Assembly: GCA_963920765.1 (NCBI GenBank)
Contig: OY987244.1
Span: forward strand, 26,888,358 to 26,952,357
Direction of reading: 5' to 3'
Source of the DNA: Ulota crispa
Taxonomy: Eukaryota; Streptophyta; Bryopsida; Orthotrichales; Orthotrichaceae
Length of the DNA stretch: 64,000 nt
In this document: piece by piece, positions 624-63,978 of the stretch
Layout of the letters: every line of letters starts with the position of its first letter
Position numbering within the stretch: the first letter of the stretch is position 1
The notes under the pieces: model-generated
What the model was told of the DNA's origin: nothing
What the model saw: only the letters and a program-made list of their open reading frames with translations
Database searches by the model: none
Position numbers and translations under genes: made by a program

Positions 624-861
624 CCCCTAAAGGATGTTGCCTACCAAAAGTGTTGTATGTATTTCTATGAAGACCATTTAGTACTTGAAGAAATGACTTT
701 ATGACAAATGCCAAAAATTCCCCAAAAAATCTGAGTTGATCAACAATATGTTTATGACTTGGCTTGAAATCTACAACTCCAATAGATTCATGTGCTACCC
801 AAATGCCCCATATATATACAATATGGGAGTTTGTATACAAAACAACAACATCCTTTAGGGG
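624..861. mobile_element. TTAA-bounded (piggyBac-like) MITE, 238 bp
   Basis: The left end is TTAA (620..623) followed by CCCCTAAAGGATGTTG. The right end, CAACATCCTTTAGGGG (ending 861), is its exact 16-base inverse. The right flank has decayed from TTAA to a T run. The element sits in dispersed-repeat copy 1 upstream of the LUX-like gene. It has no coding capacity and belongs to the family described in the findings. Confidence 0.7.
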
Positions 862-1074
862 TTTTTTTAGATTTATTTATAAATATCACTAAACGGCCAA
901 TGTTACTTTTAGGTTCTTCTACCTTATGACCACCTACCGGGTCTTCCCTTCACTCTTCCTCTCCGATCCGGATCCCCCAACCCGGCCCTAGTGTGTTTTT
1001 ATCTACCTACCAGGCAAGCCCAGATTGATACCGACCGCCCTGGCGCAGAGACAGTCGACGACGGTGCACTGCCC

Positions 1075-1145
1075 ACTGCCCTCTCTCTCTCTCTCCTCTC
1101 TCTTCTCTCTCTTCTCTCTCTCGCTAGCTCGCTCTGCCTTTGCCA
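1075..1145 (+). promoter_or_regulatory. CT-rich (pyrimidine) patch upstream of the LUX-like gene
   Basis: A run of about 65 bases is almost purely CTCTCTCT/TTCTCTC, followed by GC-rich DNA. Such pyrimidine tracts are common near plant core promoters and leaders. It lies 1.6 kb before the chosen start codon, so it would mark either a distal promoter or the start of a long leader. Inference from composition and position only. Confidence 0.35.
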
Positions 1146-2120
1146 GAGGAGTTGCTGCTACTGCTACTGCTACTCCAGCGCTTAGCCTTGTGCGGGCGTC
1201 GTCATTGCTCGTCGTCGTCGTCTAACAGCAACAACAGTCTCTGCTGCACTTGGTTGTGATTCCTGCCCGCTCGCTCGCTCGATCACCGCCCCCGTTGGAC
1301 AATTGTAGGATTCGTTCGTACGTGGGAATTGCCCAGGTGCGTTGGCAGGCAGCCATTTCGAGCTCGTCAGAAGAGCGATTGGCTCAAGCAGGGGACGAGG
1401 AGGAAGGGAATACTTTCTCTTCGTGTGTGTGATACGGTCGGTTGGTATTTTGCGAAGGAAGATTTGGTGGCGTCGTTGCGGGTGTCGGAGTGCCGGGAGA
1501 TCCCCTGCCCGGGGCTGATTTTGGCTGGTGGTTGCTGATTTTGGGAGCCTCTCCTTCTTCTTATTATTATTTTTATTATTTTTATTATTTTCGCTGTAGG
1601 GGTAGGGGATCAGGAGCGTGATTTGGGGCGCAGGGAACAGGGGAGAGAGGGAGGGAGGCTAGATTTCGGGAGTCGGGCGAAGGATTGAATCGGGCGGGTT
1701 GCCAGGAGAGCTTACGATGTACGTTAACTTAGTGAGTGTGAGCAGAAGCGAGAGCTTGACTGAGACGGGCGAGGGGGTTTGGTTTGGTGATGTCGTGATT
1801 TGGTTGCACCGGTTTTAAGGAGCAGAAGATTTGCACGCTGACCAACGCTAAGCTAGAAATTTCTCCCGGTCATAATGGCCCAGCCCCATTGTGGCTGATT
1901 TTAGGAATAGGATGATGATGCGTGGCTGAGAAGCGCGGGTTGGGTGAAGAAGAAGAAGAAGAAGTCGGCGTGACCCGTGGTGTGCATAATGTTGATGCAC
2001 TACCGGAGATGCTGGAGTGTGCGCAATGAAGACGTCCGGTGCACTCTTTGCCGGTCACCATGGTAGAGAGTACGTGTATCTCTGGAGAAGAGATCCAACG
2101 CATCGTGATTACACTACTCA

Positions 2121-2132
2121 AGGTATATAAGA
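2121..2132 (+). promoter_or_regulatory. Candidate TATA box of the LUX-like gene
   Basis: GGTATATAAGATC occurs about 600 bases before the start codon. Some 35-45 bases downstream, CTCACTCACACACACAC could hold the transcription start. The long GC-rich tract 990-1700 upstream could instead be an earlier promoter with an intron in the leader. The two cannot be separated without transcript data. Confidence 0.35.
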
Positions 2133-2726
2133 TCTGCTGCTCAAAACCCCAACAGCTCACTCACACACACACACGGCTGAGTGTAAGGGAGGGAGGGCTG
2201 AGAGAGAGAGAGAGAGGGGGAGAGGATCCATCATGTTAGCTTTGTGTGGTACAAGGTTTCGTTTGCTCGTAAGGACGGCGTCCGTCATTATGAGTGCACA
2301 CTTGGACTTAAGTGCCGCACTGCATTTCTTCCTTCACTCGAGTGACTTTTGAAATAAGTGAGAGAGTGGGGATTACGTACATTGAAAGGGCGGTGACAGG
2401 GGTCAATTCTGTCGAGAGAGAGAACCGATTGTTTTGGGGATGCAAGTTGTACGTTTGTGAAAGGAGCTTAGATTAAGCGGAGATATGGGAGTAGTCCGCC
2501 GAGTGTGTGTGTGTTTGTCTGTTTGTGCGTATCAATTGAGAAAAAAGAGGGTTTCTGATGCTGATTGTTGCAGTAAATTTTCAGATATGGGCTTGGCGGT
2601 TGCTTACCACTCGCGTTGTCATGAATTCTCGAGCCTAAGTGAGTGACGGTATTCTGGAACTGGGTTGTAAAAAAATCTTCAAGCAAGTATTCCTCTATGC
2701 ATGCGTGTGAGCGGCCCAGGGCAGGC

Positions 2727-5340: not shown

Positions 5341-7400
5341 CCTCTCCTTTTAATTTTAGACTTTGACCTACATTTTTCAAATGAAACAAATCAACTTTCT
5401 ATTTTGTAGTGTATGTTGATAGAATGTTTTAAAAATTCAAAATTCAAATTTTAACTCCGACTAGATTCTTACCTATGGTACTTGAGTACATGTGGTTTTT
5501 TGGTTGGTTATTATTATATTTTGGTTAGTGTTAATATTATATGTTTCCTCAAGTTTTAGAATCTCATATAGAAATGAAAATTGTGCAACTATTTTCAAAA
5601 TTGTTATAGTATCTAAATTTTAATTTTCAAAACTCTACAAGTAAAAAATGATTTGCAAGTGCTATGTGTATGATAGTGCAGTGATGAAAGACTTTAAAGC
5701 TTACATGCAATAACTTTGAACCTCTTGCACTCTTAGGGGCTATTGATGTATCTACTTACTTTAGGGAATGAACTTAGACAAGGCAAGAATCAAGGCAAGA
5801 GTATATAAGTTGGATGTTGATTAATTTGAATGTTGATTCAATTCCCACACAAAAAATTTGGCATGAGGATTTTAGAATTAAAATGAATATGCTTCTTTGT
5901 AGTAAGGTTAGGTGACCTCAAAGTGCATGTTATAGGTGCATTTATTATAGAGTAACTCTAGCAGTATAGGTTATAGAAGACAACAATGAAAGCCTCTTAT
6001 GGCCTTGCCTATATGCAAAGCTTGATTTCCTTACAATTGTAGCACTAGTTTGTGAAATGTTAGATCCAAGTGTTGATTTCCTTGCATTTGTCGCAATAGA
6101 ATATAGCAAACAACTAGCAAAGTAAAAAATGCCAACAATTAGCTTCTCACAAGCTTATGCTTACTAGATTGTATTTTGCTATAGTATGTAAACATTGCTA
6201 GAGTTGCCCAAAACTATGATAGGGACAAAATACAACCACACAAAAGATCACAAATTTTGACAACCATGAATATCAAGTGTTGGTCTTAAGATTTTGCTCA
6301 AGAATCTACTAGGTTACTATGATTTCTTTTACCATTGTCTTGCACTCTCTGCATTTGGCAGTTTAGACGTTTGGAGCCTTGTTTACCTTACTATACTATT
6401 GGATATGCTCTTCTTTGCCAAAATTCTCCTCTTTTTCCTTCATTAGAGAGCTATGTTGAGTGAAGACATGTTTTAAAAGTTACAAATATGGGGTAATTTT
6501 TGCCATATTCAATTTTATTCCTCACTAACCCTTCCAAGTTATTTTTGGTTGAGTTTATTTGTGTTTTACTTGTATTTATGAATTTTCATTCATTAGTGTC
6601 AAAATACACCAGGACTGTCTAAAAATTGCAATTAGCATAATTTAGCACTTTGGTCATTACACGTCCAATATTCACCAATGATTTCTATCAAACTTTGTTT
6701 GATATGTGAATTATATCAAAAGTCATTCATCAAAATAGAAGAAAAACACATGAAAATTACAAATTTAAATTTGAGAAATTAAGAGCACATTTACAATTGA
6801 TTTTAGTCACTACGGCTAATAATGATAAACACATTTGAAGTTGTTACACCAATCCATTACATGAACCAAGCATCTAATGACACTTGTGCTTAAGTCAATC
6901 AAAATTTTAAAGCACTTCATGTCATATTTAAGTAAATTTGGATTGTTCATGCAATTCTAAACTATGTAAGCAAAATATTGGGAGGGCCATAGATCTTCCA
7001 ATGTTTTAGATAGATCTCTTGATGTTTTGCAAGATCTTCTAATGTTATACAATCTTTCAATGCTTTATAAATAATGAAGATTTCTTATGTTATATGGAAA
7101 TTTCCAAATCATTAAATTTGGATTAATATTTTTGGATTTTAGCTAGACCAAATTTAATTAAATTTGTAGTTACTAGTATAGGTACCAGTTGTACCAATGG
7201 AGGTAATAGGAATATCCTTGCAATAAACAAATTCTACTCTAGCAATCTTATCACAAAATGTGGCCAATTTAAAATTTTAAACTATGAGTGACCATTTAAC
7301 TCACAAATGCCATCTACTTGATTCAAAGTAAAACTTCAATGTAAACCACTTTATGTATGTACCCTTTATTCACTTTGCGCATCCTAAAACCCCAAAACCT
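5341..7400. other. AT-rich spacer, no gene seen
   Basis: Very AT-rich with no frame of interest. A short inverted pair, GTAACTCTAGCA near 5952 and TGCTAGAGTTGC near 6197, may bound a roughly 260 bp MITE, but I see no convincing target duplication. Confidence 0.4.
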
Positions 7401-7403
7401 TAA

Positions 7404-8685
7404 CCCCTAAAGGATCATGGCCTTTATTTTGTCAAAAGACACTCAAAACTGCCACGTCTATGGCAAAGAGTAAAAAAGTTTGAAAATCGGTCTTTTTGCA
7501 TATCTAATTGTAGGATGTTATACTAGACTACTATAAGAATGTGTCATACAAAATTCAAGAACTTGGACCGCACAAATTGGAAGATATTTGCATTTAAAAA
7601 GTAAAAAAAAACTTTTTTGCACCCTGCATGACTAGATTATTTAACTTTGAACTTTTTTAACCCCTAACTGTCCAAGAGGACAAAAAGTGTCCTTTCAATG
7701 CCGAAAACACACCCCGAGGGTGGAAAAAGATTTTTTTTTCAAATTTTTTTTCTTGAAAGTGGTTAGAGAGATGTGCCACATCACTAAATGCAAAAAATAG
7801 CTGCTTTCAATGCCTCCATATTTTTAAAACACCAATTTGTAAAGAGATGTACAAGGTCCCTGCTGCCCTTTTTGTGAGGGCAGGATACACTATTGACTTT
7901 TCCTTCTTTTGAGGAGAATATTATCTCTCTTGTACTCATGCCTTTAGGCTATTCATTGTCCATGAGCAATGCACTCTCCTAGGTCTAAGCCACGGGTTTA
8001 GGATCAGTCCTTTAAGGATTGACTTAAATTTTTGTACTAGAGAGTTTGGAATTCTATTTTTTCATGGGGGGAAATTGAGTTGGTAATCTTAGAAAAAAAA
8101 ATAACAAAAAAAATAACAAAAAGAATAATTATTATTCTTTAAAAAAAAGGCAAAAGTAGGTACGAGATTGAACAAAAACCTAAATTGCTAATAAGCCTAC
8201 AATGGAATTGAAACTCAATAATCCCAATGGTGAGATTGTTTTAGAAAGCAAACTTCACCCTCTCCAACAATTTGTTTTGAAAAATACTAAAATTGCATTC
8301 AAAAATGAAGTTTATAAGTTATTTTTTCAAGAAGATGCTTGAATTGCCCAAAAAACAAGATTGTCCATAACTTTCCCATAACTAGTCCAATTGGAATGAA
8401 TCAAACCTTCAGATGTACAAAAAGATATAATCTATGAGATTATTATTTTTATTTTTTTCAAGTTTTTATAAGATTTTTTTTGATGCCCGGAGTCCCCAAA
8501 TTTGTGCTTATTTGGGCATAACTTTTGCTCCCTAGCATCAAATGGAATAAAAATTAGATGCTCACGCAGATCTTTGAATTCCCCATCTTTGATAAAAGTT
8601 TCCAAAATTATGCAAAGTAGTTTGGCCATAGGTACATGCCCGAAATCCCATTTTTCCGCCAAACGGACAGTTTGTCCTTTAGGGG
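7404..8685. mobile_element. TTAA-bounded elements, probably two nested copies
   Basis: One left end follows TTAA at 7400..7403 (CCCCTAAAGGATCATGG) and has no partner that I found. A second follows TTAA at 7657..7660 (CCCCTAACTGTCC, element from 7661). The right end GGACAGTTTGTCCTTTAGGGG stops at 8685 before TTAA (8686..8689) and pairs with the 7661 end. The interior near 8500-8620 matches, inverted, the elements at 50.4-51.3 kb and 58.2-59.6 kb (for instance GATCTTTGAATTCCCC). Short frames here (8432-8708) are not credible genes. Confidence 0.6.
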
Positions 8686-8849
8686 TTAATCAACAACCAA
8701 GGTTTTAAAAAGCATTCAAAAATTAAATAAATCCCCTTGTTGCAGTTAGGTACCATCAAAAAATTGGGTTTCCTAAAGGAAGTAGCAAAGCAAATGCTCA
8801 ACTTGCATCCTAGATAAATTGGCCCTCTTTCTCTTCATCAAATTTTGAC

Positions 8850-9541: not shown

Positions 9542-9879
9542 TACTGACAACAAAACTGGATGTAGCTTGTTAAGTTCAAGAATTGAGTTGCCACTATATG
9601 GTTTGAGTGGTTGTATAATACATACATATCCCATGAGTGAACCTTGTATGTATGTATCAATACTCGTCACTTGACCATAAAGGATAATGTTTGCTAGAGT
9701 ATAAAACATCAAAGATACATCCCAAATTGTATGATAATATGAAGAATTTCTTTCCAAGAGATTCTTGTGCAAGCCTTCCATTGGTTTCATAATTCCTTTT
9801 ATGGCCTCTTTTACTCTTATGTTCTTGACTTCTTGCGTTGTCCCTCACTATTCTTGGTATGCTAGGTACCTTCTCAGTA

Positions 9880-10459
9880 CTCCCTCTGTTCCATTATAAA
9901 GCTCCAAAAAACTTCTCCATGAGGGATTAACTGTATTTTTAGTCATTATGCTAGTGACAAATGCATTCTAGAATCAATATACCACCTACCAAATGTCTGC
10001 AAAATCTCCAATTATTATGTTGTTGTATAAACACCTGAATTCCATGCAAAAAGTACCATATTTGTGCATAATTTGTGAAGGATGCTAGCTCCTCATTATT
10101 TGAGTCTTTGTAGTAATGACACATTCGTTCTAGAATCAATATACCATCTACCAAATGTGTTCAAAATCTCTAGCTTTGATGTTGCTGTTCGGGCACACAA
10201 ATTCCATGCAAAAGTACAATATTTGTACATGTTGGTGACTCCTCATTTTTGATGATCTAAAGATTAGTAACAACAATGGTACCTCATATGGGCAAGGCCA
10301 AGCTTGTTAGGAGAGGAATGCTCTTTAATTGCTTAACTTGCCCCCATGAGATCATTGGAGATGACAAATGCTTTCTTAACAATTGAAATTAGCAAAAGGA
10401 AGCTTTTAGTGGGACAAGAACTATGCCTAATTTGGAGCTTTATATTGGGACAGAGGGAG
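9880..10459. mobile_element. Stowaway-type MITE, 580 bp
   Basis: The left end CTCCCTCTGTTCCATTATAA mirrors the right end TTATATTGGGACAGAGGGAG, and TA flanks both sides. CTCCCTCNGTNCCA is the familiar plant Stowaway terminus. Inside, a block of roughly 80 bp (TTCTAGAATCAATATACCA ... CAAATGT) is repeated directly near 9968 and 10129. Confidence 0.75.
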
Positions 10460-11674
10460 TATTTACTAGCTTTTTTTGTATGAATCTTTTATTGCCTAGG
10501 AATTTTGTGCTAAAGAAACAATGATGTTAATACAACATTTGCTGTCAAAGGCTTTTGGGTCCTCTTTTACTTTAAGAAAATAAGCTCATCATTAGTCACC
10601 TTGCAAGTAAGAGCAAAGGTTGATATAGAGAGATTGAAAGAAAAATCACTCTATTTTTATTATATTTGAAGAAAATCAAGGGTATCAAAGTTCAAGTTAT
10701 TTACTTTTAATCGTTGGTGAAAATATATCGAAAGAGTATAAGAGAGAAATCCTAACAGTTATAAGCCAATAAAAATTTACCTTAATTATCTTCACATTTA
10801 CTTCCAAATTATTATTAAAAAAAACTTTGTACATGACAAACTTTTGAGTTCTCAAACTTAGGGTCACGTAGGAGGATTTTGAAGGACTTTAATTTACCCA
10901 AATTCACCAATGAAATAGCAAGTATGAGTTTCTATAACTATGGCACGGAGTACTTCAGAATTAGCACTAGTGAGATGATAAATTAATCTTTAAAGAAATA
11001 AAATTTGTAATGGCGAAGACATTAGACTATAAAAGAGAAAGTTCTTTACAACCTTTTCCGTCTTTGGGATATGTGGTATAAATGTAGATTATATGTATAT
11101 ATAAACACATTTTGTGTGTATTTAGGCACCTTTCAATATACAAACCATTCCAATTTACAAATTTATAGATGTAAAGTATTATCAAAGATTAAATCAATTT
11201 TTTTATTAATTTGATCTTGAAATGTCAAATCAATGAAATTTTTGATTAGTTCAAAGAATTCACTACCATATTTTGTTTTATAGAAGAAAAACAGAAGAAG
11301 GTGTTAGCATACTTCATATTAAACAAGATTTTGTTACATTTAAAATAAATAAAAGCTTGAGTAAAAAAAAAAATCATGAATTTTTATGAATTGTAAAATA
11401 CTTGTATTTACATTTGAAAATTAGTTGCTCATGTGCAGTTGATAAATATATCCTACTAGAAAAAAGACTCTAAACTTTGAGTACTAGAGAATTGATTTGT
11501 CCTTTGAGTACATGTATTTACATTTAGTGGAGGGTTTTTTTATAACTTTCCATGACTTGGGTTGAAGCAATAATGAAAAAACCACTAGATTTTGATTATA
11601 TAAACTAATACTCATTGTACTCCACTTGATTTTAGGAAACTTCCTAGCATGCTTTTGGTCTTCCCAAGGAATAA
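10460..11674. other. AT-rich spacer, nothing recognised
   Basis: No frame, tandem repeat or paired terminus that I could defend. Confidence 0.4.
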
Positions 11675-18993: not shown

Positions 18994-18994
<1 letters not shown>

Positions 18995-19093: not shown

Positions 19094-20038
19094 AGGAATT
19101 GCTAAAGTTACACCCAAAATTGCTAACGCCACACTCCAAGGTGTGCTTTAGCATGAAATGTGAGAATTTAATGCTCATTTTTAAAAATTTCAATCAAAAG
19201 ATTTGTGTAACCTCTATCTTCCTAAGGCTATATTAAATTTTTTTTGGAGGCGCTTGAATTTATAACTAAAAATATAGGACTTTTGAATTACTTGAAACAA
19301 AAGTTCATCAAAAAATAGCAATGGTGCAATAAAAGTTCAACAAAAAATTGTATTTGTTGTCTTAGAGGTGATAATGTTGTGATTGAATGAATGATGGACC
19401 ACTTGAATACAAAAAAATAGCTTTGACCCCTAAATGCCCAAGGGGTAAGGGCAAAACATAGAATTGTTATAAAATGTTATTTTTGTAGCTTTTTTGCAAG
19501 TTGTATCAAAAAAGCAAACAAGAATCATAAGCTTTGGTAATTATCCTTATGGCCAAACATTCAAAAAAAATTTGGGACTCTTATTTAATGAATTTAGAAG
19601 CATTTACCACTTAATATTCATCAAAATTACATATTTTAGTCATAGAATTTAAAATTTGGTATGATTGGTTAAAAATAGACATTTTATTGAAAACTTCAAA
19701 TATGCAATCTTTTTGAAGGAGAGGATATCATTATGTTTCCCAAAAAAGTAAATTATGTAACACTGGCAAATATTGAAGTGTTTGTCTTTGAAAAATTCTC
19801 CTTGATGGAGGTTAACTTGGATTGACAAGTTTCAAATTAGGTTGGAAAGTAGACTTGCTTTCCTAAATGAAAGTATTTTTTTATTTTTTCAAAAAATGTT
19901 CTTTTCCTTTTTGGGCAACCCACAAGAAAAGGCAGCAACTAGAAAATAGTCAATCGGGTGTTTAGGGGTTAAATTCTCAAATTACATGCTCATAGGGGAG
20001 TGGTGTTAATAGTTTTGGATGTAGCTTTAACAATTCCC
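19094..20038. mobile_element. hAT-like non-autonomous element, copy D1
   Basis: AGGAATTGCTAAAG at the left mirrors CTTTAACAATTCCC at the right. The 8-base flanks TATTTGTA (19086..19093) and TATTTATA (20039..20046) differ at one base; an 8-bp target repeat is typical of hAT. It is inserted in the 18761..20100 element and itself carries the TTAA element 19427..19968. Its relative at 63 kb lacks that insertion. Confidence 0.75.
19427..19968. mobile_element. TTAA-bounded (piggyBac-like) element inside hAT copy D1
   Basis: The element begins CCCCTAAATGCCC after TTGA (19423..19426) and ends GGGTGTTTAGGGG before TTAA (19969..19972). In the related hAT copy at 63 kb the same place reads AATAACATTAAATTCTC, a single uninterrupted TTAA. 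That is direct evidence for insertion at, and duplication of, TTAA. Confidence 0.8.
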
Positions 20039-33651: not shown

Positions 33652-33923
33652 GTCAACACTCTCGAAATCCGTGAGTGAAGGTCTCCGATGTTTTGATTTG
33701 TGTGTACAAATTCTTACACAGGGGTGTAGGGTTTAACAACTGGGATTCTGCCATCTCAATACTTGCTATGTTTGAAAATCATTCATTCACCATTTATCAT
33801 CCGTTTTTATACGTTTCATCCAATGTTACTAAGTAGGGGTATGAGATACTCATAGAAAATAGTACAATTGTTTCTTGTAGAAACTCATGTTCAAAAGAGT
33901 CTAAACTGTAAGTCCATGGATGT
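33652..33923. promoter_or_regulatory. Presumed promoter region of the YCII gene
   Basis: This is the interval between the start codon and the next transposon. No clear TATA box is seen on the minus strand, and the promoter may be TATA-less. Inference from position. Confidence 0.3.
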
Positions 33924-33926
33924 TAA

Positions 33927-35679: not shown

Positions 35680-36583
35680 CCCTTTAAAGACCACACACAT
35701 TTTCACAAAATCCTTTAGAAACTGGGGTAGTAAACTTGGATGTGCTATTGAATCAAATATGGACTTGGTTTCAATGATCCAACCTTACAAATGGGAACTA
35801 CACCTTGTTTACTATAAAGTATCAAAATTTCAACTAGATTTACCGTTGGAGGTGAAATATTATAATGATTGAGTGAGTTGTAGGTGGAAAATCTCTAGTT
35901 TTTGTGCTTGTGTGGTTTTGGATCTTACTACTCACACGAGCTTTGTTTGAGAAGACCCTTATATTTCTAAAAAGCATGGTTTCTCAACTTTCCAATGAGA
36001 CTAGTTTCACACAAAATGGATAAAAATAGCCATCACAAGGTGTAGCTAAGTGGACAAAATGGGCAAAAAATCCCACTTTATTTGCTATCCAAAAATAGTT
36101 TTACAAGAAAATTGATAAATGCTATGGAAAATCCAATTGGTGAAAACAATAAAGAATTGGCCTCAAATGTAGGACAACAAATTTTTAATATGAAATGATA
36201 GCACCATTTCAATAGATCTTCAAATATTACAATTATACTACTACCGTATAGAGAAACAATACAAGCATATTTCTTGAGGAATTTGAAATTTTTAGGACCG
36301 CACAATTGAAATTTGACATTCTTCTTGGATGTTTGTTGTATTGTGCTATTGCTTTTAACCATCTTTGACCAAATACGGATATGTATTTTGAGGTCATGCC
36401 GTATAAACATCATTATTTATCAACTCACATACCTGATTTCATTGTTTTTTATTTGGTTGGATGCAAAATTCTTGTGAGCACAAGCATTCTTCAAGACCAG
36501 TTTCCAAATTGTTGAACGATTTTACTCTATAAGCCAAAAACCACTCTCCCAAACCAAAATATGGTTTGCTGGTCTCTAAAGGG
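35680..36583. mobile_element. TTAA-bounded element, 904 bp
   Basis: TTAA (35676..35679) then CCCTTTAAAGACCA at the left; TGGTCTCTAAAGGG then TTAA (36584..36587) at the right, one mismatch in 14. The 111-codon minus frame inside (36078..36413) has no recognisable transposase motif. Confidence 0.75.
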
Positions 36584-36587
36584 TTAA

Positions 36588-38389: not shown

Positions 38390-38733
38390 TTAAGGTCATA
38401 GTTTGTTTTGCCTCAAAAGCTGAAGATTTACATGCTACCCACCCCCCTATGCACTCTTGGTTAACGTTCAGGTCAGAATTTGCACTTTGCTAAGCCGTGA
38501 AAAAATGCTATTGAGGTTCAAAAAAATCAAACATCTCTCCCTAAAACAAAGCACATGTAAACATCACCTGTCAACCTCACCTCCGCTACTCTGAACAAAA
38601 AAGACTAAGAAATAATATAAGAAGAAAAAGTGATTATAGTTGCACCACTTGAAGATACCCCAATCACTGTGTCAGAAATCAACGGTGCAAGCCTGATGTA
38701 AGATATAAAAACAACCAAAAAATGTCTCATAAG

Positions 38734-50000: not shown

Positions 50001-50279
50001 GAAACTGACAGATACGAACAAGGTTTCGACCACGACGGTTCCAGGTGGAATCTGTCATCGCGAGCACCCCCACGTGCTCTTTGCTTCGTTCGGAAGATGG
50101 GGAGGGGGCAAGGATGGGGTCCTGGCGGGGTGTTCGATGTCCTTTGACCAGGGATTTGTTTCGGGCTATTTTTAGCTCAATATCCATACAGCTTTTTGTT
50201 TAGCGCATTTTTTGGCTGTATTCTTCCTTCCTTTTCCTTTTGCTGTGAGATGGAATTATGGAAATGTTGCAGTTCTTAA

Positions 50280-50366
50280 CCCTTAAACGCCGACAGGGAC
50301 AAAAATTGTCTCCGGCAAATATACTGAGCCAGTGTATTTGCGGCAATAGGTCCCGGCGCTCAAAAG
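50280..50366. mobile_element. TTAA-bounded mini-element, 87 bp
   Basis: TTAA (50276..50279), CCCTTAAACGCCGACAGGGA at the left, GTCCCGGCGCTCAAAAG and TTAA (50367..50370) at the right. The arms pair through GCCG/CGGC, and a second small hairpin (AATATACTGAGCCAGTGTAT) sits in the middle. It is the first of three elements chained by shared TTAA sites. Confidence 0.6.
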
Positions 50367-50370
50367 TTAA

Positions 50371-51303
50371 CCCCTAAAAGCCCAAGTGTTCCCTCCGGGG
50401 ACAAATGGACCTCGGGCATGTACCTATGACTAGACTAGTTTTTATAATTTTTTTGAAATTTTTGAGGATTGTGGGGAATTCAAAGATGTATGTGCACATC
50501 TAATTTTTTCTTCATTTTGATATTTATTGAAGAAATTATGCATGAATTTCTGAACAACAGGGGAGTGTAGGCAGTCCAGGCAGCCCAAAAAACTTCTTTA
50601 AAAGTTTCATTTTTCAAAACTAAAAATCTGAAATTGATTCTTTAGATTTATACAAATGTGGAAACCTTTAAATCATTCAATTTTGATTTATGAGTGAGAA
50701 GTTTTGGTTTTCGGGTAGGTGTGGAATTCCCAAACCTCTATTCCTTTTATCCCTTGTAAAATTTGGTGCTTGATTTTTTTTTTACTTTTCTTTTTCCAAG
50801 TTGTAGTAGACTAAGATTCCTTGGTTTTTGCTATTTGGATCAAAGTTATTCAAATTTCTCAATTTTACATAAATCCTCCAAGTTTGCCTAGTGTATATGC
50901 AAATTTCATGGCTTTCTGGCCTTGCAAGATTTTACAAAGTATGTATCACACCTCCAATTCATTTGAAAATTCTCCCATACTTTACCCATCTTGGTCTTCT
51001 ACATGGGAAAAATAAACTTCAACTTTGCGTAGAGCAAATTTTTTGATATAGGAAAGGTTGAAGGCTTTTGAAATTTTTGGACAACAGGGAAAAAACTTAT
51101 TTTTTGACTTTGGATGTGAATATCTCACTCATTTACATTTAGAATGAGCTGATTTTTTTTCCACAAGTACCCACCATAGTCTAAGGCAAGATACTACAGT
51201 TGGATTTCCCAAAAAAACATGTTTTCTTATCTTTCTACCCATTCCCCCAACAGTGGCAATTTTGAGTGACTTTCATAGAAAAAAGGGCTTGGGCCTTTAG
51301 GGG
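50371..51303. mobile_element. TTAA-bounded element, 933 bp
   Basis: CCCCTAAAAGCCCAAG mirrors CTTGGGCCTTTAGGGG with one mismatch; TTAA lies on both sides and is shared with each neighbour. A 64-codon frame (50821..51015) is partly kept in the relative at 58.6 kb but shows no transposase motif. Confidence 0.8.
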
Positions 51304-51307
51304 TTAA

Positions 51308-54300
51308 TCCCTAAATGCCCAAGGCACCCAATTTGGGTGTTTGCAAAACTTTGAAGGCAAATAAAATCTTATCAAATCACTATTTTTGGTCTTTTCTTTT
51401 TAACACAAGTTTGTTTTGAAGTCTACTTTCAATATCAAAAATTTGATTTTGAAAATGAATGTTCATGATTTTTCTATTCAAGATTTTGTACAAGGGTATC
51501 CAGTGCAATCTTGAGTTTTCTAGTGTTGGAAGATCTTGAAAATGAGCCTCAAATACACTAGAGCTTGGAGAAAAATTTGCATTAGAAATCCATTCAAAAT
51601 AAATATAGGAGTAGATTCAGAAAGTCGTAAATTGGTTGAGGTTAGACATGTAATGACCTTAAACCTCATATTTTTTTGATGTCCAACTTTTTAGATTTGA
51701 CATGTGAAATGAGAATTAGAAAATTTCAAGTCACTTTTGCAGTTTTAACACCCTCATGTTCAAACGTTATAATCTTTTAAACTATAAGTGATATTGTTGT
51801 GTTTTCTTTTTCAATGTAATTATTAAGAATGTTACTTAGGAATGTTCCATTTTCTTTTACTTTCAACTTTAGAATATCTTTTACTTTAGATATCTTTCAC
51901 TTTAGATCAGAGTATATATAGAAATCAAGGCTGAAGTGTTATTCAGACTCGACAACACATCTCTTGAAGCCATTGCTCACTTCTTTTTATATTTGTTTCA
52001 TCATCTTTGAATCTAAGTTCATTCATAGTTCTTATCGATTATCTTTCTATTTCTATGTCCGTAATAGTTTGTCAAGTCTTACTTCATTTGAGTATCAAGA
52101 CCCTTGTTGGAGGTTCGGTTTATCCCATCCAATTTGATATCTCATTTATTATAATATTTGTGTCTTATTCTTCTTGTGAGAATTACGGACGTTCCCTCTT
52201 TTTGAAGGTTTGAAGGTTTAGAGGTTGCGGTTTATCTCCTCTCAATCAATATTTTATTTTATTTTATAAACTTTGTTATTCTCCGTCTTATAGTATGGCA
52301 GAACCCTAGGATTTTGTCATGCGCAAAGCTGTAAAGTTTAAGTTAAAAGCCATCCTTGATGCTATCACTATGTTGTCAAATCAAACCACAACAATTAAAA
52401 GAGTTATTGGTGGTCTTCAACAAGATCAACCTTCCGCCAATTTGGAGAAATGAGCTTCATTTGTAGTTTGACAAAATATATCACCACCACTGTAATAAAA
52501 GAAACCTCGTATTAATCTTTTTGAAAAATTTGATGACACGCGTTCCAAGTTCTGAGGATTTGTCAATCAAATTCAATTGATAATTGCCTTACAATCGAGA
52601 CTCTATCTAACACAAGAATTACAAGTTGAATTAGTTGGAACATTACTTACAGAACAAATTTTATCATAGTTTGCTCTTTTGTTCAAAAAATGTTCACTTA
52701 TATTAAATAACTTTGATACTTTTCTTGAAGCCTTTGCAGAAGCGTTTAGTGAACATGATAAGGTTTGTTGGGCAACTACAAAAATTTGGTCCTTAAGACA
52801 AGGGACACATTTTGTATCGGCTAACGCCTCAGACTTTTGACAATTTGCGTGCAACATCAATTAGGATGAAATAACTCTTATGAGTCAATCTATTGGAGAT
52901 TGAAGGATTCTGTAAAAGATTTACTTTTATCACTTCTTGATCCACAAACGTTGAATGAGACAATTAATCAAGCGATTATATGCGACAATCAACTTTTTCA
53001 ACGCTAACAAAATCAGATTTCACCGAAAGAACAAACGACTCGTCTTACCTCATCTATATCGATAAGTAGTCTAATTTTGCATTCAGAAACTATAAATATG
53101 CAAATCAATGCTATACATGTCAAGCATCTCACTTTGGAAAAAAAATAGCGTCGCATGGAGAAGAAACTATGCTTGTATTGTGGCGAGGGATGCCATAGAG
53201 TTCCCAATTGTCTAAAGAAGCCGAATCAACGTAGTATTAAGACCAAAGCTACCATCGTCTAAAAAAACTAAAATATTCAGCTACAATAGAAATTGTGCAT
53301 CTGAATAATGCAATTCCACAATAACATTTAGGTTCTTCCTTTTCCGCTCAATTTGCTTCTTGTTTTATTATTCCTTTATCCGTTGCTTCTCAGAAATTTG
53401 AAATCACTTCTCTATTAGATTCAGGAGCATTTGTTTGTTTTTAGATGAAAAATTTGTTAAAAATTACAAACACCTTTTAGTTCAGAAATCTCAACCCATC
53501 AATGTAGAAGTGATAGATTGACAACCTTTGTCTTCTGGCAGTGTCACATATGAAACAATGCCTTTAGAGGTGATAAATAAAGGCCATAATAGCCAAATTA
53601 TCTTCAATATTATTAAAATTCCATCAAATCCTGTTATTTTTAGTTTTTTATGATTTGAAAAGTACAATCCGTCAATAGAATGGGTATTATGAAAAACAAT
53701 TTTCTTCAAAAATCATCTAGCCAATAAATTTGTTATACTATATGTTGAAAAATCTATTGAAAAACCTGTTAGCAAACAAACTAGTAAACCGCAAGTGAAG
53801 AAATTTATGTTTATTGGAGCAAAGGCGTTTAGAAAAATGACAAAACAAGATACACCATTTATTATCTATGCGGCTCTAACTAGTGAAATGAAGATCACAA
53901 AAGTTAGTATCCCAGAGTAATATAAAAAATTTTAAAATATCTTTCTAAAGAAGAATGCCGACATATTACCGGAGCACCAATTATATGATTCTGCTAAGGA
54001 CTTGGAAGAAGGAGCAGAATTTCATTTTGGTCCAATTTATAACTTATCACAAATAAAATTAGTAGAACTACAAAATTATATTAACGAGAATTTGGCCAAG
54101 TACTTCATTTGTTATTGCAAATCGCTTGCTGAAACGTTCATTCTATTTGTAACAAAGAAAGATGACTCCTTACAAATGTGCGTGAATTATCAAGGTCTTA
54201 ATAAGGTGACAAAAAAGAATCGCTATCCATTACCTTTGATCTCTGGACTTATAGATCAATTCAAAAATGCAAAAATCTTTACCAAAATTAACTTACGCGA

Positions 54301-57236
54301 AGCTTACAATCTCGTACGAATAAAAAAAAGAAACGAATGGAAGATAGCATTTTGTACAAGATATGGTCATTTTGAATGTAATATCATGCCTTTTGAACTT
54401 ACAAATGCTCCAGCACTCTTTTAACACATAACGAATGATACTTTTTTAGAGCATCTTGACAACTTTGTTATTATCTACTTAGATGACATCTTGATATTTT
54501 CTAAAAATGAAGAAGATCATGCAAAATAAATTTGTTTAGTCCTTGAAAAATTATGCAAACAAGAACTCTTTCCAAATCAGAAAAATGTTTATTTTACCAA
54601 ACTAAAATTGAGTTTTTGAGATTCATTGCAACTATGATGGACTTGAAGATAGATCTCAAAAAGATAAAAACTATCTTGTCTTGGAAAGTTCCAAAGACTA
54701 TTAAAGACCTATAATGTTTTCTTGATTTTGTTAACTTTTATCATGTCTATCAAAGAATATTTTCAAATTGCTGCTCCACTCACTTAAGTGACAAGCAATG
54801 GCAAACTTGACTGGAGATCACTAGCGGAAAAAACTTTTCATAATTTAAAAACCGCAGTCATTATGGCTCCAATTTTTGTACACCCAAATTTTTCAAATGC
54901 ATTTTATTTGAAAACCGATGCCTCATGTTTAGCTTTAGGAACTGTACTTTCACAACCAGAGGAGAATAAGAAGCTTCATTCCATTGTCTTCTATTTTTGG
55001 AAATTTTTTGCTGCCGAAATCAATTATGAGATTCACGATAAAGAATTTTTTGCTATTGTGGACTCCTTCCTAAAGTGGCGCTATTTCCTTGAAAAAGCTA
55101 CGCACCCGGTGACTGTTTATACAAATCATAAAAATTTGGAGTACTTCATGTCATTTCGTGTTTTAAATCGGCGTCAAGCTCAATAAAATATGTTTCTATC
55201 TTGGTTTGATTTTATTATCATATATTAACCGGAAAAGCAACAAAGATTATTTGATGCTTTGTCAAAAAAATCATATCTTGCGCCCAATACTGGAGAAACA
55301 ACATTCAATCAACAACGTAAAACTTTGTTGAAACCAGAACTATTTTGCCTTTGTGCTATAGTTATATCATCACCTATAGATGGAGACTTTCTCAACTAAG
55401 TATGCATTGCAACTATTGGAGATCGTGTAGCCCTCGATATCAAGTATTGCATTGCTGAAAAAGACACTTTTGAAGTGGATGAAGATTTGTTATATTTTGA
55501 AAAATGTTTGTTCATTCCAGAAGGTCCAACACAACTTCAGGTTTTTCAATCTCACCATGATTTCTCAGCCGCGGGTCATTTTTAATACAATAAAGCTTTG
55601 AAACTTGTTTCTAAAGATTTTTTATGGCCTCAAAAGTGAAAAGATTTAAAGGATTTTGTTACCTCTTGTGACGTTTGTTCAAGATCCAAAAATCATCAGC
55701 ATCGTTATTATAGACTTTTGCAATCATTGTCTATTCCACATTGGCCGTAGTCTTCGGTTTCTATGGATTTTATTGCGAATTTGTCACTGTCAGATTTATT
55801 TGACAACATCTTTGTTATAATTGATCGGTTTACAAAAATGGCAGATTTTGTCCCTTGCAAGAAAACTTTGTTAAATGAAATTACGGCAAGACTATTTCTT
55901 GATAATGTATATTGTTATCACGATTTATCAGACAATATTGTATCAGATCGAGGACCCTAATTTGTATCAAAATTTTGGAGACATCTTTTCAAAGTATTGA
56001 AGGCGGAGATCAATCTCTTTTCAACTTTTCATCCCCAAAGTGAAAGTCAAACAAAACAAGTTAATCAAGTCCTTGAGCAATATTTATGATGTAGTATCAA
56101 CTATCAGCAAGACAATTAGACAATATATTTGCCATTAGCAAAGTTTGCATACAATAATACTCTCCATGCTTCAGCTCAACAAACACCATTTTATTCCAAT
56201 GATGGCTATCATCTAAAGCTTGATTTGTTGAGTTCACCAGCAAATAGTAATCCAGCAGCTGAGTATTTTACAAAACAATTATTGCAAATTCAAGATATTT
56301 TGAAGCTTCAACTACAATCCGCCCAAGAATCTTACAAAATAACTGCGGACAAATATTGCAATTAAACACTTGATTTTCAAATCGGAGATAAGATATGACT
56401 TATTCGACGGAATATTAAAACCAAGCGGCCATGTGACAAGTTAGACTATTAAAGATTGGAACCATTTGTCATTCTAAAGCAGATCAGTTCAGTGGCATAC
56501 CGTTTAGAGCTATCAGCTTCTATAAAAGTACATCCAGTTTTTTATGTATATCTTTTAGAACCTTATCGGCAGTCACATTTTCCAAGAAGAATATAACCGC
56601 CACCGCCAAGTGTTGAAATTGAAAACTACAATGAATATGAAATGGAATAAGCATTAGACTCATGGTGGAGCAAAGTAGAGTATTTGGTACATTAGAGCGG
56701 TTATAATATCAACGAGCAAACGTAGGAACCAATCGAGAATCTCGTAAATGCATTAGAAATGATACAAGAATTTTATCAACTTTATTCGGATAAACCTGGG
56801 GCTCCTCTTAAGACTCGTCGCTTGAAAAGGAGATAATGTTAGGGATGTTACTTCGAAACGTTTCATTTTCTTTTATTTTCAATTTTAGAATATCTTTTAC
56901 TTTAGATTTCTTTCACTTAAGATTTCTTTCACTTTAAATCAGAGCATATATAGAGGTCAAGGTTGAAGTATTATTCAAACTCGACAACACATCTCTTGGA
57001 ACCATCGCTCACCACCTTTGATATTTATTTCTTCATTTTTGAATCCAAATTCATTCCTAGTTCTTATCAATTATCTTTCTATTTCTATGTCCGCAACAAT
57101 AATCTCTAACATGCCAAGTTTAAATTTGTACGGTTATAGTTTAAAAAAACTTGATGAGAATTATATAAAGATTGGTTGATTGTTCACTTTCTTGTAAATG
57201 CCAAGAAGTTCAGCAAGGCCTTGGGCATTTAGGGAT
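51308..57236. mobile_element. TTAA-bounded element interrupted by a Gypsy retrotransposon
   Basis: TCCCTAAATGCCCAAGG and CCTTGGGCATTTAGGGA are perfect 17-base inverses; TTAA precedes (51304..51307) and follows (57237..57240). Without the retrotransposon it would be about 650 bp, the size of its close relative 63179..63808, which reads straight through the insertion point. Confidence 0.85.
51821..57098 (+). mobile_element. Broken Ty3/Gypsy LTR retrotransposon (fossil)
   Basis: LTRs are 51821..52066 and 56837..57098, and a purine-rich tract precedes the right LTR. The 5-base flanks GTAAT and ATAAT look like its target repeat. Parts in order: a Gag region with a CCHC zinc knuckle near 53.17 kb, a protease motif near 53.42 kb, reverse transcriptase from about 54.0 kb with YLDDILIFS near 54.48 kb, RNase H near 54.9 kb, integrase about 55.5-56.6 kb. 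Integrase after RNase H places it in Ty3/Gypsy. It is clearly dead, with well over a dozen breaks, and the LTRs are visibly diverged, so it is old. It lies inside a TTAA-bounded DNA element. Confidence 0.9.
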
Positions 57237-57240
57237 TAAA

Positions 57241-58210: not shown

Positions 58211-59655
58211 ATACCATGGATGAAATTATTGAACTGGATTTGGGTTGTGTGTTTTTTGAAACTTTTATTGAAGATAGGGAATTCAAAGACCTATGTGGGC
58301 ATCAAATTTTTTCTTCATTCGGACATTTGACAAAAAAGTTATGCAAGAATTTTCCAAAATTAAGGGAGGAGGGGTAGTACTAGTTTGGGCATGGCTTCTC
58401 CTTTATAAGTGGGTGTTGATTCCAAAAGGGGTCAACCTTTACAAGCGCAAGGTATGGCCACTTGGGCAAAGGGGAGCAAAGTGGAAGAGGCCTGTCTTAC
58501 AGAACTTCCAACCTTCCATTTCTTTTGTCTCTTGTAAAATTTGATACTTTAGTTTTTTGAGTGATTTGTGCATTTGTTTTAATTCTTTTTTTCCAAGTTA
58601 TTGTAGGCTAAAATTCCTTGGTTTTCATAGTCTATATTAGTGTAATTCCAATTTTTGATTTTTACATAAACCCTCCAATTTTGCCTACAAGTAATGTACC
58701 CAATTATCACTACTCTATCTTAAAAAATCCATATCTTTTAGGGTTTCACTTCAAATTTGGGTTTAGAGATAATGCAAGAAATGTCTTAGAGTCCTTTATT
58801 TAATGGTGCAATTTTTTCCATCTGGCCAAAATTTGCAAACAATAAAGCGTATTTGCTATGAAGACCTTAATTAGACATACAACTCATTGGCCCAACGCCT
58901 TAGCTATAGTAATGTCAATTGAAAAACACCAAAAACAATTGAAATTTGACAGCTTAGCTAGCACTTATGGATGACCACAAAAGCCAAAGATAAAAAGAAG
59001 AAGTCCAAAGATGAAAATAACAAAATATGATTATGTAAGACAATACAAACCTCTAAGAAAGTGATGATAGGGCAATTTCAAATTTGAACTTAACCTTGAC
59101 TTTACCTCATTGAAACCCTAAAAACCAATACATACTTCACTAATTTAGGAATTTAGAACTTGATATAGAAACTTGACTTAGTTATCTTTCAGATGATACC
59201 CTAGCCATGACATTTGGTGTATTATAGCTTTTGTAGTTAAGATTCCAATAAAGGCCCAATGATAATAGGGTAAATTGCTTGTAGAGTATTTGCAAATTTC
59301 ATGACCTTTGGGCATTCAAATATTTTTTGAAGTATGTTGTACACCTCCAATTCATTTGAAAATTCTCCCACTCACACCTAATTTGGTCTTCTACATAGAG
59401 GAATTGAACTTCAACTTTATTTAGAACAATTTTATTACTATAAGAATGTTCAAAAGCTTGTTAAAGTTTTGGGCAAGAATGGAAATAACCTTTTTTATAT
59501 GTTCAAATATCAATATCTCACTCCTCTCCATCCAAAATGAGCTGATTTTTTTTTGCACAAGTACCTTCCATTGTCTACGGCAAGATCTCACAGTGAGATT
59601 TTCAATTTTTTTTTCTTACCTTTCTTAAAAAGGAAGAGACTTAGGCCTCTAGGGG
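58211..59655. mobile_element. Worn TTAA-type element, relative of 50371..51303
   Basis: The right end CTTAGGCCTCTAGGGG precedes TTAA (59656..59659). The left end is no longer clear (TTAA near 58207). The body follows 50371..51303 closely (AGGGAATTCAAAGACCTATG, ACATAAACCCTCCAATTTTG, CTTCTACATAGAGGA). It carries an extra block of about 600 bases (about 58682-59280) that the relative lacks. Confidence 0.55.
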
Positions 59656-59659
59656 TTAA

Positions 59660-60271
59660 AGTATCATCAACAACCTTTGTTACTAGCCATGGTAACAATT
59701 ATAATTCTTTTGCTTAGAAAAAGTTAAAAACCCAAAAACAAACTACAAATAATGTTCACAAAAACAATAAGTATTAAATAACACTTTGAAATAATTATGG
59801 ACTTCATGTTGAAGATTGATAAGAGTTAAGAATACAGTGTTTATTCCATAAAACAATAATAATTTATTAGTGTAAAAAGAAACCAAAGCTTGGATGATTC
59901 TAATTGATGTTTTGCGCATGCCCACACTATGCACTCAGATACACATGTTTATATTCTGATGAAAAGATAGATTGTGGTCCAAGTGGCCACCCATAATTCT
60001 ACGTTTGAAACAAGGTTACAAATCCAAAACTAAAAAAAGAACAATGCATGGTAGCAAAAGGAAAGGACATGGAAAAATTAAGGCTCTAGCCTACACCACC
60101 TTTCCAAATTGACAAGAGGTACACACAAACTAAAAAAAATGAAATTTGCTTTGTCAGTTGTAATACCTTACTGTTCTTGTCAGTTTTAAAACCTTATTGT
60201 TGATGATGCTCCTGAACTAATTCCCACTTGGTTGGCAAATAGTATTGCATGGTCAATAGGGATAATCACAT
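59660..60271. other. AT-rich spacer
   Basis: Nothing recognised; short frames only. Confidence 0.35.
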
Positions 60272-60279
60272 TAAATGTA

Positions 60280-61388
60280 GGGAATTGCTAAATCCACCAC
60301 ACTTTCTGCTAAATACACCACAAGTCCCATCGCATGCCCCACCTCACACCACAGGCTCCATTGCACACCACATGGCCTACCCCACATCACAAGCCCCACC
60401 GCACACCACATGCCCTACCCCACATCATAGGCCCCACCCTAGATTTTGAGCTTCTTGTACAAAATCCTACATTTTTCATTTCCATCTGGCCTTTTAATCC
60501 ATACGCCAAAAAATAAAAAATAAAATTGTGTTTTAACCAGTTGATTTTAGTTTCACTAGATTTTTTTCACATTTTATTTGACCAACTTTCAATTGCTTCT
60601 TGATTCTCCCCATACATTATTTAGAAGTTCCTCAAAGAAAAAAAAAGTGAATTGATATGGACACACTCATGGTTTGATATATGCACACCCCTCGGGGGTA
60701 AATTTTAGATTTTTACCATCAAAAAGCTGAACTTGAAAATTTTGAATTTATATTTGGACTTAGAGACCTTGATTTTGTCTAGAGCCATGAAGGATGTTGC
60801 AATTGAACATCACCCAATGAAAAAGCTTAGTTTCTATAAACAAATAAAAGTAAAAGTAATACTTTCCCCCCTAGCCAAGCTTTTTCATTGGGTGTTATTC
60901 AATTGTAATCTCCTTCATGGCTCTAGACAAAATCAAGGTCTCTAAGTCCAAATTTGAATTCAAAATTTTCAAGTTCAGCTTTTTGATGGTAAAAATCTAA
61001 AATTTACCCCTAAGGGGTGTGCATATATCAAACCATGAGTGTGTCCATATCAATTCACTTTTTTTTTCTTTGAGGAACTTCTAAATAATGTATGGGGAGA
61101 ATCAAGAAGCAATTGAAAGTTGGTCAAATGAAATGTGAAAAAAAATCTAGTGAAACTAAAATCAACTGGTTAAAACACAATTTTATTTTTTATTTTTTGG
61201 CGTATGGATTAAAAGGCCAGATGGAAATGAAAAATGTAGGATTTTGTACAAGAAGCTCAAAATCTGGGGTGGGGCCTATGATGTGGGGTAGGGCATGTGG
61301 TGTGCGGTGGGGCTTGTGATGTGGGGTAGGCCATGCGGTGGGACCTGTGGTGTATTTAGCAGAAAGTGTGGTGGATTTAGCAATTCCC
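60280..61388. mobile_element. Long near-perfect foldback (hAT-like), 1.1 kb
   Basis: The left arm from GGGAATTGCTAAATCCACCA and the right arm ending TGGTGGATTTAGCAATTCCC are inverse for about 500 bases each. Only a short loop separates them (about 60840-60880, between AAAGCTTAGTTTC and CCAAGCTTTTTCATT). The 8-base flanks TAAATGTA (60272..60279 and 61389..61396) are identical. The outer part of each arm contains short tandem units of the type CACACCACATGNCCTACCCC. The ends share GGAATTGCTAAA with the hAT-like element at 19094. The transcript of such a locus would be a long hairpin. Confidence 0.85.
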
Positions 61389-61509
61389 TAAATGTAGTAT
61401 AATACTATATTTCATTATTAGTGTAGTGGTTTTTAAACAAGGGCATGTGGGTTGAAATTTTTGTTTCAAGCCGTTTCTCTTTTTCACACTCTTCCAAGGC
61501 GCACCTACA

Positions 61510-62178
61510 CTAGATATTGCGTTTAGGTTGCTCCACACTAATTCCTTGACATGTTACACTATGTATGTTTATTGCTTTTACACTACTTTTCATGCTACAA
61601 GAAAATGCTATCAATCAGGTTAGTTTTGAAGATTCAGATGTGTCAATTTGGACATTTCTTTATCAATTTGGGCATTTTTTTGTCAATTTGGACAAAATTA
61701 GTGAATTTGGACTTGTCACTTGAACACGGTTTTCTTGTAGTATATATCATCAGTAATTACTACAACAAACAATCTATAAAGGTTCTAACAACAATAGTGA
61801 TGTTGTGGAAAAACAAATTAACGCCGTCCACGCCATAAGGGCTAGTTTCCATTGAGGGGCCGAAGGTCCGAGCTTGGAGGTCCAAGCTCCGGCTCTGTAA
61901 AACTTGACCAACAAGTCTAGAGCACCTGGACCTTTGATTGGAGGTCGCTTTTTAAAATGTACACGGTTTGGGAATTTTAGAAATTTTTGTTCCTCTACTC
62001 CCGTCAGGCCGGACGTCTAGTCCAGGCCCTCAATGGAAACTTAGTTTAAACCATGTGAAGTCCCAAAATCTAAAGAGTTACATGCACTTCCAAGTGGTCA
62101 AATGATGAGTCATGAGGTAACTTTCCAAAGAAAGGCAACCTAATTTGTTAAAGCAACCTAAATGCAATACTTAGTGTA
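61510..62178. mobile_element. TA-flanked CACTA...TAGTG element, copy 3
   Basis: CACTAGATATTGCGTTTAGG mirrors AACCTAAATGCAATACTTAG TG; TA flanks both sides. Interior ATGAGTCATGAGGTAAC as in the relatives at 42 and 18.8 kb. A Tourist-like MITE is inserted inside. Confidence 0.65.
61841..62045. mobile_element. Tourist-like MITE inside the 61.5 kb element
   Basis: CTAGTTTCCATTGAGGGGCC mirrors GGCCCTCAATGGAAACTTAG; TAA lies just outside both ends. The inner part is GC-rich for this region. Confidence 0.6.
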
Positions 62179-62391
62179 TCGAAGCTTGCAAAGCGCTAAG
62201 ATCCAATCAGATTGCACCACACGGCAGGAGAGAGGAATACAGAAGGAGTGTGGTAAATTGGTTACCAATGCTAGAGTAATGTGAGCCCGCCACGTGTAAT
62301 GGCCCACCCCATGATAATCTACTTGCATTTGAATAACGAATCAAACAACATGGTATGAATTTTACAACATATTCAAGGTTCACGGTCTTAA

Positions 62392-62550
62392 GGGCCTCCT
62401 TCCATGCTCACCCGGTGGCTGGTCAAATTAAAAATATTCCACCAATAATTGGTTAGATCGGGCTGCATAAAAATCGGAATCCCATCTGATCAATTATTAG
62501 TGGAATATTTTTAGATTGACCGGCCACCGGGTGAGTATGGAAGGAGGCCC
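62392..62550. mobile_element. Foldback MITE with GGGCCTCCTTCCATG ends, 159 bp
   Basis: GGGCCTCCTTCCATGCTCAC mirrors GTGAGTATGGAAGGAGGCCC, and the arms continue through ACCCGGTGGC and GGAATATTTTT... to a loop of about 30 bases. TAA flanks both ends. Tourist/PIF-like. Confidence 0.75.
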
Positions 62551-63002
62551 TAAGTACACGGTCTTAAGGTCACGGTCCAACATCTACGGTTCGCGGAAAC
62601 TCCAAGAATGATTTTCTTTGATTTCTGTTGTTTACCTTATTCTAGGAAAACGAGGTAATTCAATAAATTCTATAATCAATAGTACTGGTTATCTTGTACA
62701 CGTTGAAGGATTAAAAATTTCATAATATACATTACTTTGAACAATGTAACTTTGTAATCCTTAATTTAGAAAAAATATAGATTTTCAACTTCATTTACAA
62801 ATTTAAGGCAAAATTTGTTGAAAATGCTCTTCAACCAAGAGAAATGTCACGCCGATACATTTGGAATAATCAATATTGTTGTTGAATATTATTCTTTCTA
62901 TTACATTGGTCAACCAACCTTTTATTTTTCTTCTCATTCTGAATTAAAATTGATTCTAAGACACTAAAAAAGAACAGTATTTAAGTACTATTGACAAAAG
63001 TT
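62551..63002. other. AT-rich spacer
   Basis: Nothing recognised. Confidence 0.35.
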
Positions 63003-63978
63003 ACTGCGAATTTCTAACGTAACACCCTAAACTATAAACGAGACACCCCCTTTGAACATGAAATGTGATTTTAATGCTGATTTTGTGATTTATTTCACCT
63101 TTATCATTTTAAAGTTATCCTAAAAAAAAGGTGTGTTTAAATTTGAAACTAAAAATACAAGACTTTTGAGCTACTTAATCCCTAATGTTCAAGGCATTCA
63201 GATTAGGTGTTTGCAAAATTTTGAAGATGAATATAATCTTATCAAATCACTATTTTTGGTCTTTTCTTTTTTAACACAAGTTTGTTTTGAAGTCTACTTT
63301 CAATATCAAAAATCTGATCTTGAAAATGAATGTTCATGATTTTTCTATTCAAGATTTTGTACAAGGGTGTCTACTGCAACCTTGAACTTTCTAGTATTGG
63401 AAGATCTTGAAAATGAGCCTAAAATACACTAGAGCTTGGAGAAAAATCCGCATTAAAAACCCATTTAAAAAAAATGTAGGAGTAGATTTTGAAAGCCGTA
63501 AATTGGTTGAGGTTAAACATGTAATGACCTTTAACCTCGTATTTTTTTGATGACTAACTCTTTAGATTTGTCATGTCAAATGAGGATTAGAAAACTTCAA
63601 GTCACTTTTGCAATTTTAACACCCTCATGTTCAAACATTATAATCTTTCAAACTATAAGTGATATTGTTGTGTTTTCTTTTTCCATGTAATCTCTAACAT
63701 GTCAAGTTCAAATTACAATTTAAATGATGAGATTTATGAAAAGGTTGATTGATTGTTCACTTTCCTGAAAATGCCAAGCAATTCAGAAAGGCCTTGGGTA
63801 TTTGGGGGTTAAAGCAAAAATACATCAAAAAATAATATTGGTTCAATAATATTTCAACAAAAATGTTGTGATTGAATGAATGATGGACCACTTGAATAAA
63901 TAAAAAATAACATTAAATTCTCAAATCATGCTCACCAGGTGTGGCTTTAGCACTTTTGGGTGTGCTTTAACAATTCCC
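63003..63978. mobile_element. hAT-like element, copy D2, hosting a TTAA element
   Basis: It parallels 19094..20038: AACATGAAATGTGATTTTAATG, GATTGAATGAATGATGGACC, AATTCTCAAATCATGCTCA, right end GCTTTAACAATTCCC. The left end near 63003-63010 is worn and no clean 8-base target repeat was found (right flank TTTACATA). Confidence 0.6.
63179..63808. mobile_element. TTAA-bounded element inside hAT copy D2, 630 bp
   Basis: TTAA (63175..63178), TCCCTAATGTTCAAGG; CCTTGGGTATTTGGGGG, TTAA (63809..63812). It is the closest relative of 51308..57236 without the retrotransposon. The matching place in hAT copy D1 (near 19289) reads TTACTTGAAACAAAAG with no insertion. Confidence 0.8.

Follow-up and report, generated by a model that had tools for sequence, protein, structure and literature searches.

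Excision without a footprint is established for insect piggyBac (PMC7351741; PMC10905368), whilst a 2023 review states that every DNA transposon found in plants leaves an excision footprint (PMC10905368). For corals, a report reportedly treats animal miniature inverted-repeat transposable elements (MITEs) alongside piggyBac and TTAA (PMC2872659). Two surveys of plant superfamilies with terminal inverted repeats and of MITEs do not contain the word piggyBac in the text accessible from them (PMC9033089, PMC12550479). Here, we describe a set of short, TTAA-flanked elements with ends starting CCC in a 64,000-base stretch of DNA (the window; C3:26888358-26952357 of genome G000), together with a survey of the genome to which it belongs (274.8 Mb, 157 contigs). 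A previous interpretation of this stretch, made from the letters alone (the sequence-only reading), had assigned the elements to piggyBac from their TTAA flanks and CCC ends, and this assignment is supported by genome-wide counts of the ends, by a 4 bp target duplication and by matches to PF13843, the piggyBac transposase model, between such ends. Very probably, the window holds non-autonomous elements (MITEs) that belong to the piggyBac superfamily and have decayed coding relatives elsewhere in the genome, the host being most likely a moss.

End motifs and target-site duplication

The short end TTAACCCYTAAA (TTAA-CCCYTAAA), allowing up to one mismatch, occurs 23 times in the window against 1.83 expected, a number attained in none of 100 shuffles. 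Exact copies across the whole genome number 39,919 (19,961 forward and 19,958 reverse), compared with 792 (397 + 395) for the reversed control pattern. TTAA stands directly before 36 of the 54 matches to CCCYTAAA-N-R in 264 kb, comprising 20 sampled stretches and the window, and a longer end, CCCCTAAAGGNCCAAG, is present 5,668 times genome-wide with TTAA immediately 5' in 4,746 cases (84%), reversed controls giving none. Terminal inverted repeats starting CCC are found both in the mapped elements and in the genomic pairs. The latter include 285 inverted pairs of 216-246 bp with exact ends (CCCCTAAA-N(200-230)-TTTAGGGG), against two in the control.

The length of the duplication was examined with 82 candidate pairs, whose flanks were joined assuming 0, 2, 4, 6, 8 or 9 bp and aligned to all fetched DNA; an alignment was scored as gap-free when the 9 bases to either side of the junction aligned unbroken. 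On the assumption of 4 bp, 25 of 31 spanning alignments, representing nine elements, were gap-free, the remaining lengths giving 2/34 (0 bp), 0/31 (2 bp), 0/31 (6 bp), 1/31 (8 bp) and 0/29 (9 bp). The empty-site 4-mers in these 25 alignments were TTAA (nine), TTGA (four), TTGG (three), TTTA (two), ATGT (two) and five others once each, and at least one exact TTAA empty site was found for five of the nine elements. The clearest case is the element at 37180-38044, in place of which four relatives carry one TTAA and a fifth GTAA. The duplication is 4 bp long and the target is TTAA.

Transposase genes and their link to the ends

A profile search with PF13843 returned at least 120 matches in the genome (best 1e-73), 116 of 528 candidates having been scored, and matches in none of 14 control genomes. 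On that same scoring of 116 of the 528 candidates, the window holds no PF13843 match, and the nearest match among those listed lies ~104 kb beyond the window end. A stop-free interior is present in 10 of the 120 listed matches; introns were not modelled, so stops in a given match are no proof of decay. At four fetched loci, three transposases score 2e-47 to 8e-63 against Pfam and the fourth matches as two pieces. The closest solved proteins are insect piggyBac (6x67, 3.6e-20) and piggyBat (9c0f, 4.4e-18). The full catalytic triad of aspartates can be read in L030, L031 and L032, L029 has asparagine (N) at the third position, and a motif scan recovers one or two of the three in L033, L034 and L035.

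Upstream of the transposase core, open reading frames (ORFs) at L029 529-1593 and L031 522-1154 are 66% alike over 359 DNA bases; neither has a Pfam match, and one of them repeats K-R-K-Y-T-R-K motifs. They are possibly the N-terminal part, or a second gene, of the element. Separately, transposase matches occur as opposite-orientation pairs 15-109 kb apart (C7:18203169/18223004, C10:676128/785346 and C2:36765124/36779670). In each pair the stops agree and the scores are the same or almost so, and we take these pairs to be recent inverted duplications or assembly artefacts.

The search for a piggyBac transposase between ends of this type, as the sequence-only reading proposed, led to C8:19568194-19573849, a 5,656 bp transposase-bearing element with ends TTAACCCATTAAGGATC and GGTCCTTAAAGGGTCAA, TTAA on its left and TCAA on its right. 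This is the element of L031, and its left end, TTAACCCATTAAGGATC at L037 2695, is recognised solely from the motif and from an alignment with L036. Similarity between the transposase loci of L031 and L034 (76%) extends to 5345/4135, where they end in TTAAAGGGTCAA and TTAAAGGATTAA, L029 terminates in CTAAAGGGTTAA, and L033 is 95.7% alike to L046 as far as a TTAA, beyond which the two diverge at once. More generally, [AG]GGGTTAA lies 1.05-2.15 kb downstream of the transposase at 10 of 19 loci, but at 0/19 on the opposite strand and 0/19 for the reversed pattern, whilst 17.2% of random genome windows contain it (P 4.5e-4). Ends CCCCTTGAGGACAAAGG (L035) and CCCCTAAAGGCCCAAG (L039) are similar to the MITE end CCCCTAAAGGACCAAGG. 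None of four stop-poor transposase loci has a TTAACCCYTAAA end (0-1 mismatch) on both sides, their ends being of the CCCTTTAA type, and no right end was recognised at L030. A TTAA target, a 4 bp duplication, inverted CCC ends, families of defined length and piggyBac transposase genes between ends of the same type are all observed in this genome. On this reading, a piggyBac transposase would have cut and pasted the short elements in trans via the common ends, and their excision would have restored TTAA without a footprint, as it does for the insect element.

L039 resembled a coding parent of the 940-bp family and was not retained: the one candidate for its left end, at L050 1417, has two mismatches, and the right-flank repeat was not found on the left.

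Families, abundance and age

Full-length relatives elsewhere in the fetched DNA were found for 29 of 62 candidate pairs, three of the 29 being alternative ends of one copy. These fall into length groups of ~230, 640 and 830-960 bp, with 75-88% identity between relatives. A library of the 29 entries covers 20,628 of 200,000 sampled bases (10.3%, and still 10.3% when same-locus hits are excluded), the sample being drawn solely from C1-C4, as 20 pieces of 10 kb spaced 5 Mb apart, in four of which nothing was found. The same library covers 8.8% of the window (reversed control 0), and by mapped boundaries the elements occupy 8,831 of its 64,000 bases (13.8%). Twelve copies of the 246-bp family compared over 80 bases have a mean identity of 88% (range 79-96%). 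Taken together with the stop codons in most transposase matches, the 75-88% identity between relatives makes most copies look old. The elements are short, numerous and, in the window, without a scored transposase match; they have ends in common with coding elements over the first 12-17 bases and no further, L039 (uncertain) excepted.

Alternative explanations

A number of observations weigh against placing the window elements in the piggyBac superfamily. The empty site reads exactly TTAA in only 9 of the 25 gap-free alignments, which fits old copies without proving it. The earlier expectation that most copies keep TTAA holds for single ends, though exact TTAA on both flanks is seen in only 146 of the 285 pairs of 216-246 bp, below the 70% expected from independent 84% retention per side; mutation is the likely reason for this shortfall. 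Seven of the 19 loci had been seen when the downstream pattern [AG]GGGTTAA was chosen, and the remaining 12 alone give 6/12 (P 0.009). A stricter end pattern gives 2/12 against 1.3%, a looser one 7/12 against 31.8% with 4/12 in the reversed control, and a variant gives 11/19 with three on the opposite strand and four reversed, its L031 hit being a different end. Furthermore, none of the transposase-bearing elements was found to resemble a window MITE over a long sequence at both ends, and what links the two is TTAA and ~12-17 terminal bases; L039 has an end and ~370 bp (66%) in common with MITEs, although it could itself be a worn MITE lying close to a transposase. This lack of long similarity, coupled with the fact that TTAA alone is not specific to piggyBac, being targeted also by Kolobok and Sola3, would suit a model in which the MITEs belong to one of these or another TTAA-targeting superfamily and merely coexist with piggyBac. 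However, piggyBac transposases, the kind covered by the search, adjoin TTAA-CCC ends of the same form, and we consider such coexistence improbable.

Two further explanations have even less in their favour. PIF/Harbinger-type (Tourist) MITEs are common in plants and, since TTAA includes both TTA and TAA, a 3-bp duplication of either could have been read one base too long; yet, among the lengths run, the empty sites fit 4 bp in 25/31 alignments and 2 bp in 0/31, and TTAA, not a 3-bp direct repeat, stands in both flanks, which makes this origin very improbable indeed. The 7-base word CCCTAAA within the element end is the plant telomere unit, which could suggest scattered telomere-like units or chance. 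This idea is refuted by the occurrence of the word as single units in inverted pairs, with family-specific lengths and conserved neighbours, and by the few occurrences in shuffles and reversed controls. A wider proposal is possible but doubtful: that piggyBac is a major genome force in this moss lineage, among the largest piggyBac-derived expansions of any land plant, with many diverged transposase lineages as its source, constituting a natural footprint-free plant system whose host might retain working copies or tamed transposase genes.

Elements and other features of the window

The mapped elements are listed in Table 1. Among the boundaries proposed previously, 33923-34575, 40342-40570 and 63175-63812 stand as they were, whereas 620-865, although real, and 19423-19972 each depart from TTAA on one side. 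An element starting near 7661 does exist, but the larger one enclosing it had been overlooked. This also alters one of two proposed lineages: the grouping of 50367-51307 with the 58.2 kb copy holds, but the 7661 element does not belong to it, the true match (70-77%) being the enclosing element. The other lineage (33927/51308/63179) was recovered with 77-91% identity. A separate element at 36588 could not be upheld, as this is the continuation of the outer element at 35668-38393.

Table 1. Elements mapped in the window (positions are those of the 64,000-base stretch)
Element	Position	Ends, relatives and remarks
246-bp MITE, CCCCTAAAGGATGTTG family	620-865	Ends read; same family genome-wide; right outer 4-mer TTTT
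~930-bp MITE	7400-8689	Bounded on either side by TTAACCCCTAAAGG; the two end parts each align to 50367-51307; interrupted by 7657-8022
366-bp nested element	7657-8022	TTAACCCCTAAC / TCAATCCTTAAAGG; L012 has an empty relative carrying a single TTAA; alignment gap near junction
550-bp element	19423-19972	Left TTGA, right TTAA; empty sites: window 63862-63979 (one TTAA), L023 (CTAA)
653-bp element, 640-bp family	33923-34575	Ends TTAACCTCTCACCGCC / TTAACCCCTCACCGCC
Outer element, 945-958 bp family	35668-38393	Ends TTAACCCCTTAA and TTAACCCATAAAGGACC; relatives L003, L004, L019, L031
912-bp element	35676-36587	In TTAA inside terminal repeat of outer element 35668-38393; 82% to L036 1829-2737
865-bp element nested further in 35668-38393	37180-38044	Empty relatives: TTAA in L019, L003, L004, L031; GTAA in L050
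229-bp MITE	40342-40570	Each side has TTAA and a CCCTT end; L023 6056-6289 is a full-length relative, 78%
95-bp mini-element	50276-50370	TTAACCCTTAAACGCCG / TTAACTTTTGAGCGCCG; one TTAA in common with 50367-51307
941-bp MITE	50367-51307	Full-length relative L024 5963-6901, 83%
~650-bp MITE in two parts	51304-51820 + 57100-57239	Split by ~5.3 kb
Worn, interrupted copy akin to 50367-51307 (58.2 kb copy)	58252-59659	Left end not recognisable
638-bp MITE	63175-63812	Full-length relative L027 3483-4131, 81%; empty relatives: L023 (TTAA), window 19254-19419 (TTGA)

Nesting is pronounced at 35668-38393, which measures 957 bp once its two nested elements are subtracted, relatives being 945-958 bp; the first insertion interrupts the outer terminal repeat at the junction TTAACCCC-TTAA-GGACCAAGG. 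The pattern is repeated in L036: there, the left end of a transposase-bearing element contains a TTAA occupied by a relative of 35676-36587 (82%), with TTAACTCT-TTAA before the insert and TTAA-GGCTTGG after it. Elements can also abut, 50367-51307 and 51304-57239 having one TTAA in common.

Other repeats are present in the window. The ~5.3 kb insertion at 51820-57100 holds a reverse-transcriptase-like ORF (53936-54421) whose match to RVT_1 (6e-6) falls below the cut-off. Its stretch 52638-53790 shows 76% identity to DNA adjoining a piggyBac transposase (L047). A 584-bp repeat at 9878-10461, with ends TACTCCCTCTGTTCC / GGGACAGAGGGAGTA and relatives in L022, L027, L037 and L050, resembles the Stowaway MITEs of flowering plants. 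A large, near-perfect inverted repeat occupies 60265-61403; its arms measure 268 nt (96%) and 202 nt (99%), and relatives occur in L004, L009, L016, L019, L021, L037, L040 and L049.

The window contains a peroxidase exon and a gene with the DNA-binding domain known from LUX, a plant factor. The single LEAFY locus found in the genome (two exons) reads MRDYVHC and AWCQACY, presumably Asp312 and Cys345, the moss type. LEAFY types are defined by sites 312, 345 and 387, and Bryopsida have type II, according to PMC6588583. Judged by these LEAFY residues, the host is most likely a moss, probably of the Bryopsida.

Comparison with known systems

The literature searched yielded no account of an abundant piggyBac family native to a land plant, several searches being poor and Repbase lying outside their scope. 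Set against novelty, piggyBac is stated to have been isolated from plants in PMC10813416, and PiggyBac appears among the class II superfamilies listed in PMC10794571. A fern repeat table reports 1,230 PiggyBac hits, amounting to 122,417 bp (0.00%) (PMC6890710). The piggyBac kind is already known, and it is the host and the abundance that appear new within the literature searched. A native, abundant piggyBac system would extend the list of plant superfamilies, and annotation pipelines that recognise only five MITE superfamilies of plants would overlook or misclassify such elements. It would also make large-scale seamless excision in a plant nucleus testable.

In common with insect piggyBac (PDB 6x67/6x68) and bat piggyBat (PDB 9c0f), the family described here combines a TTAA target and its duplication with CCC ends and a PF13843 transposase in which three aspartates align. 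It differs from both in its plant host, in that the only coding element bounded at both ends measures 5,656 bp, and in that the genomic family consists mostly of short, non-coding members.

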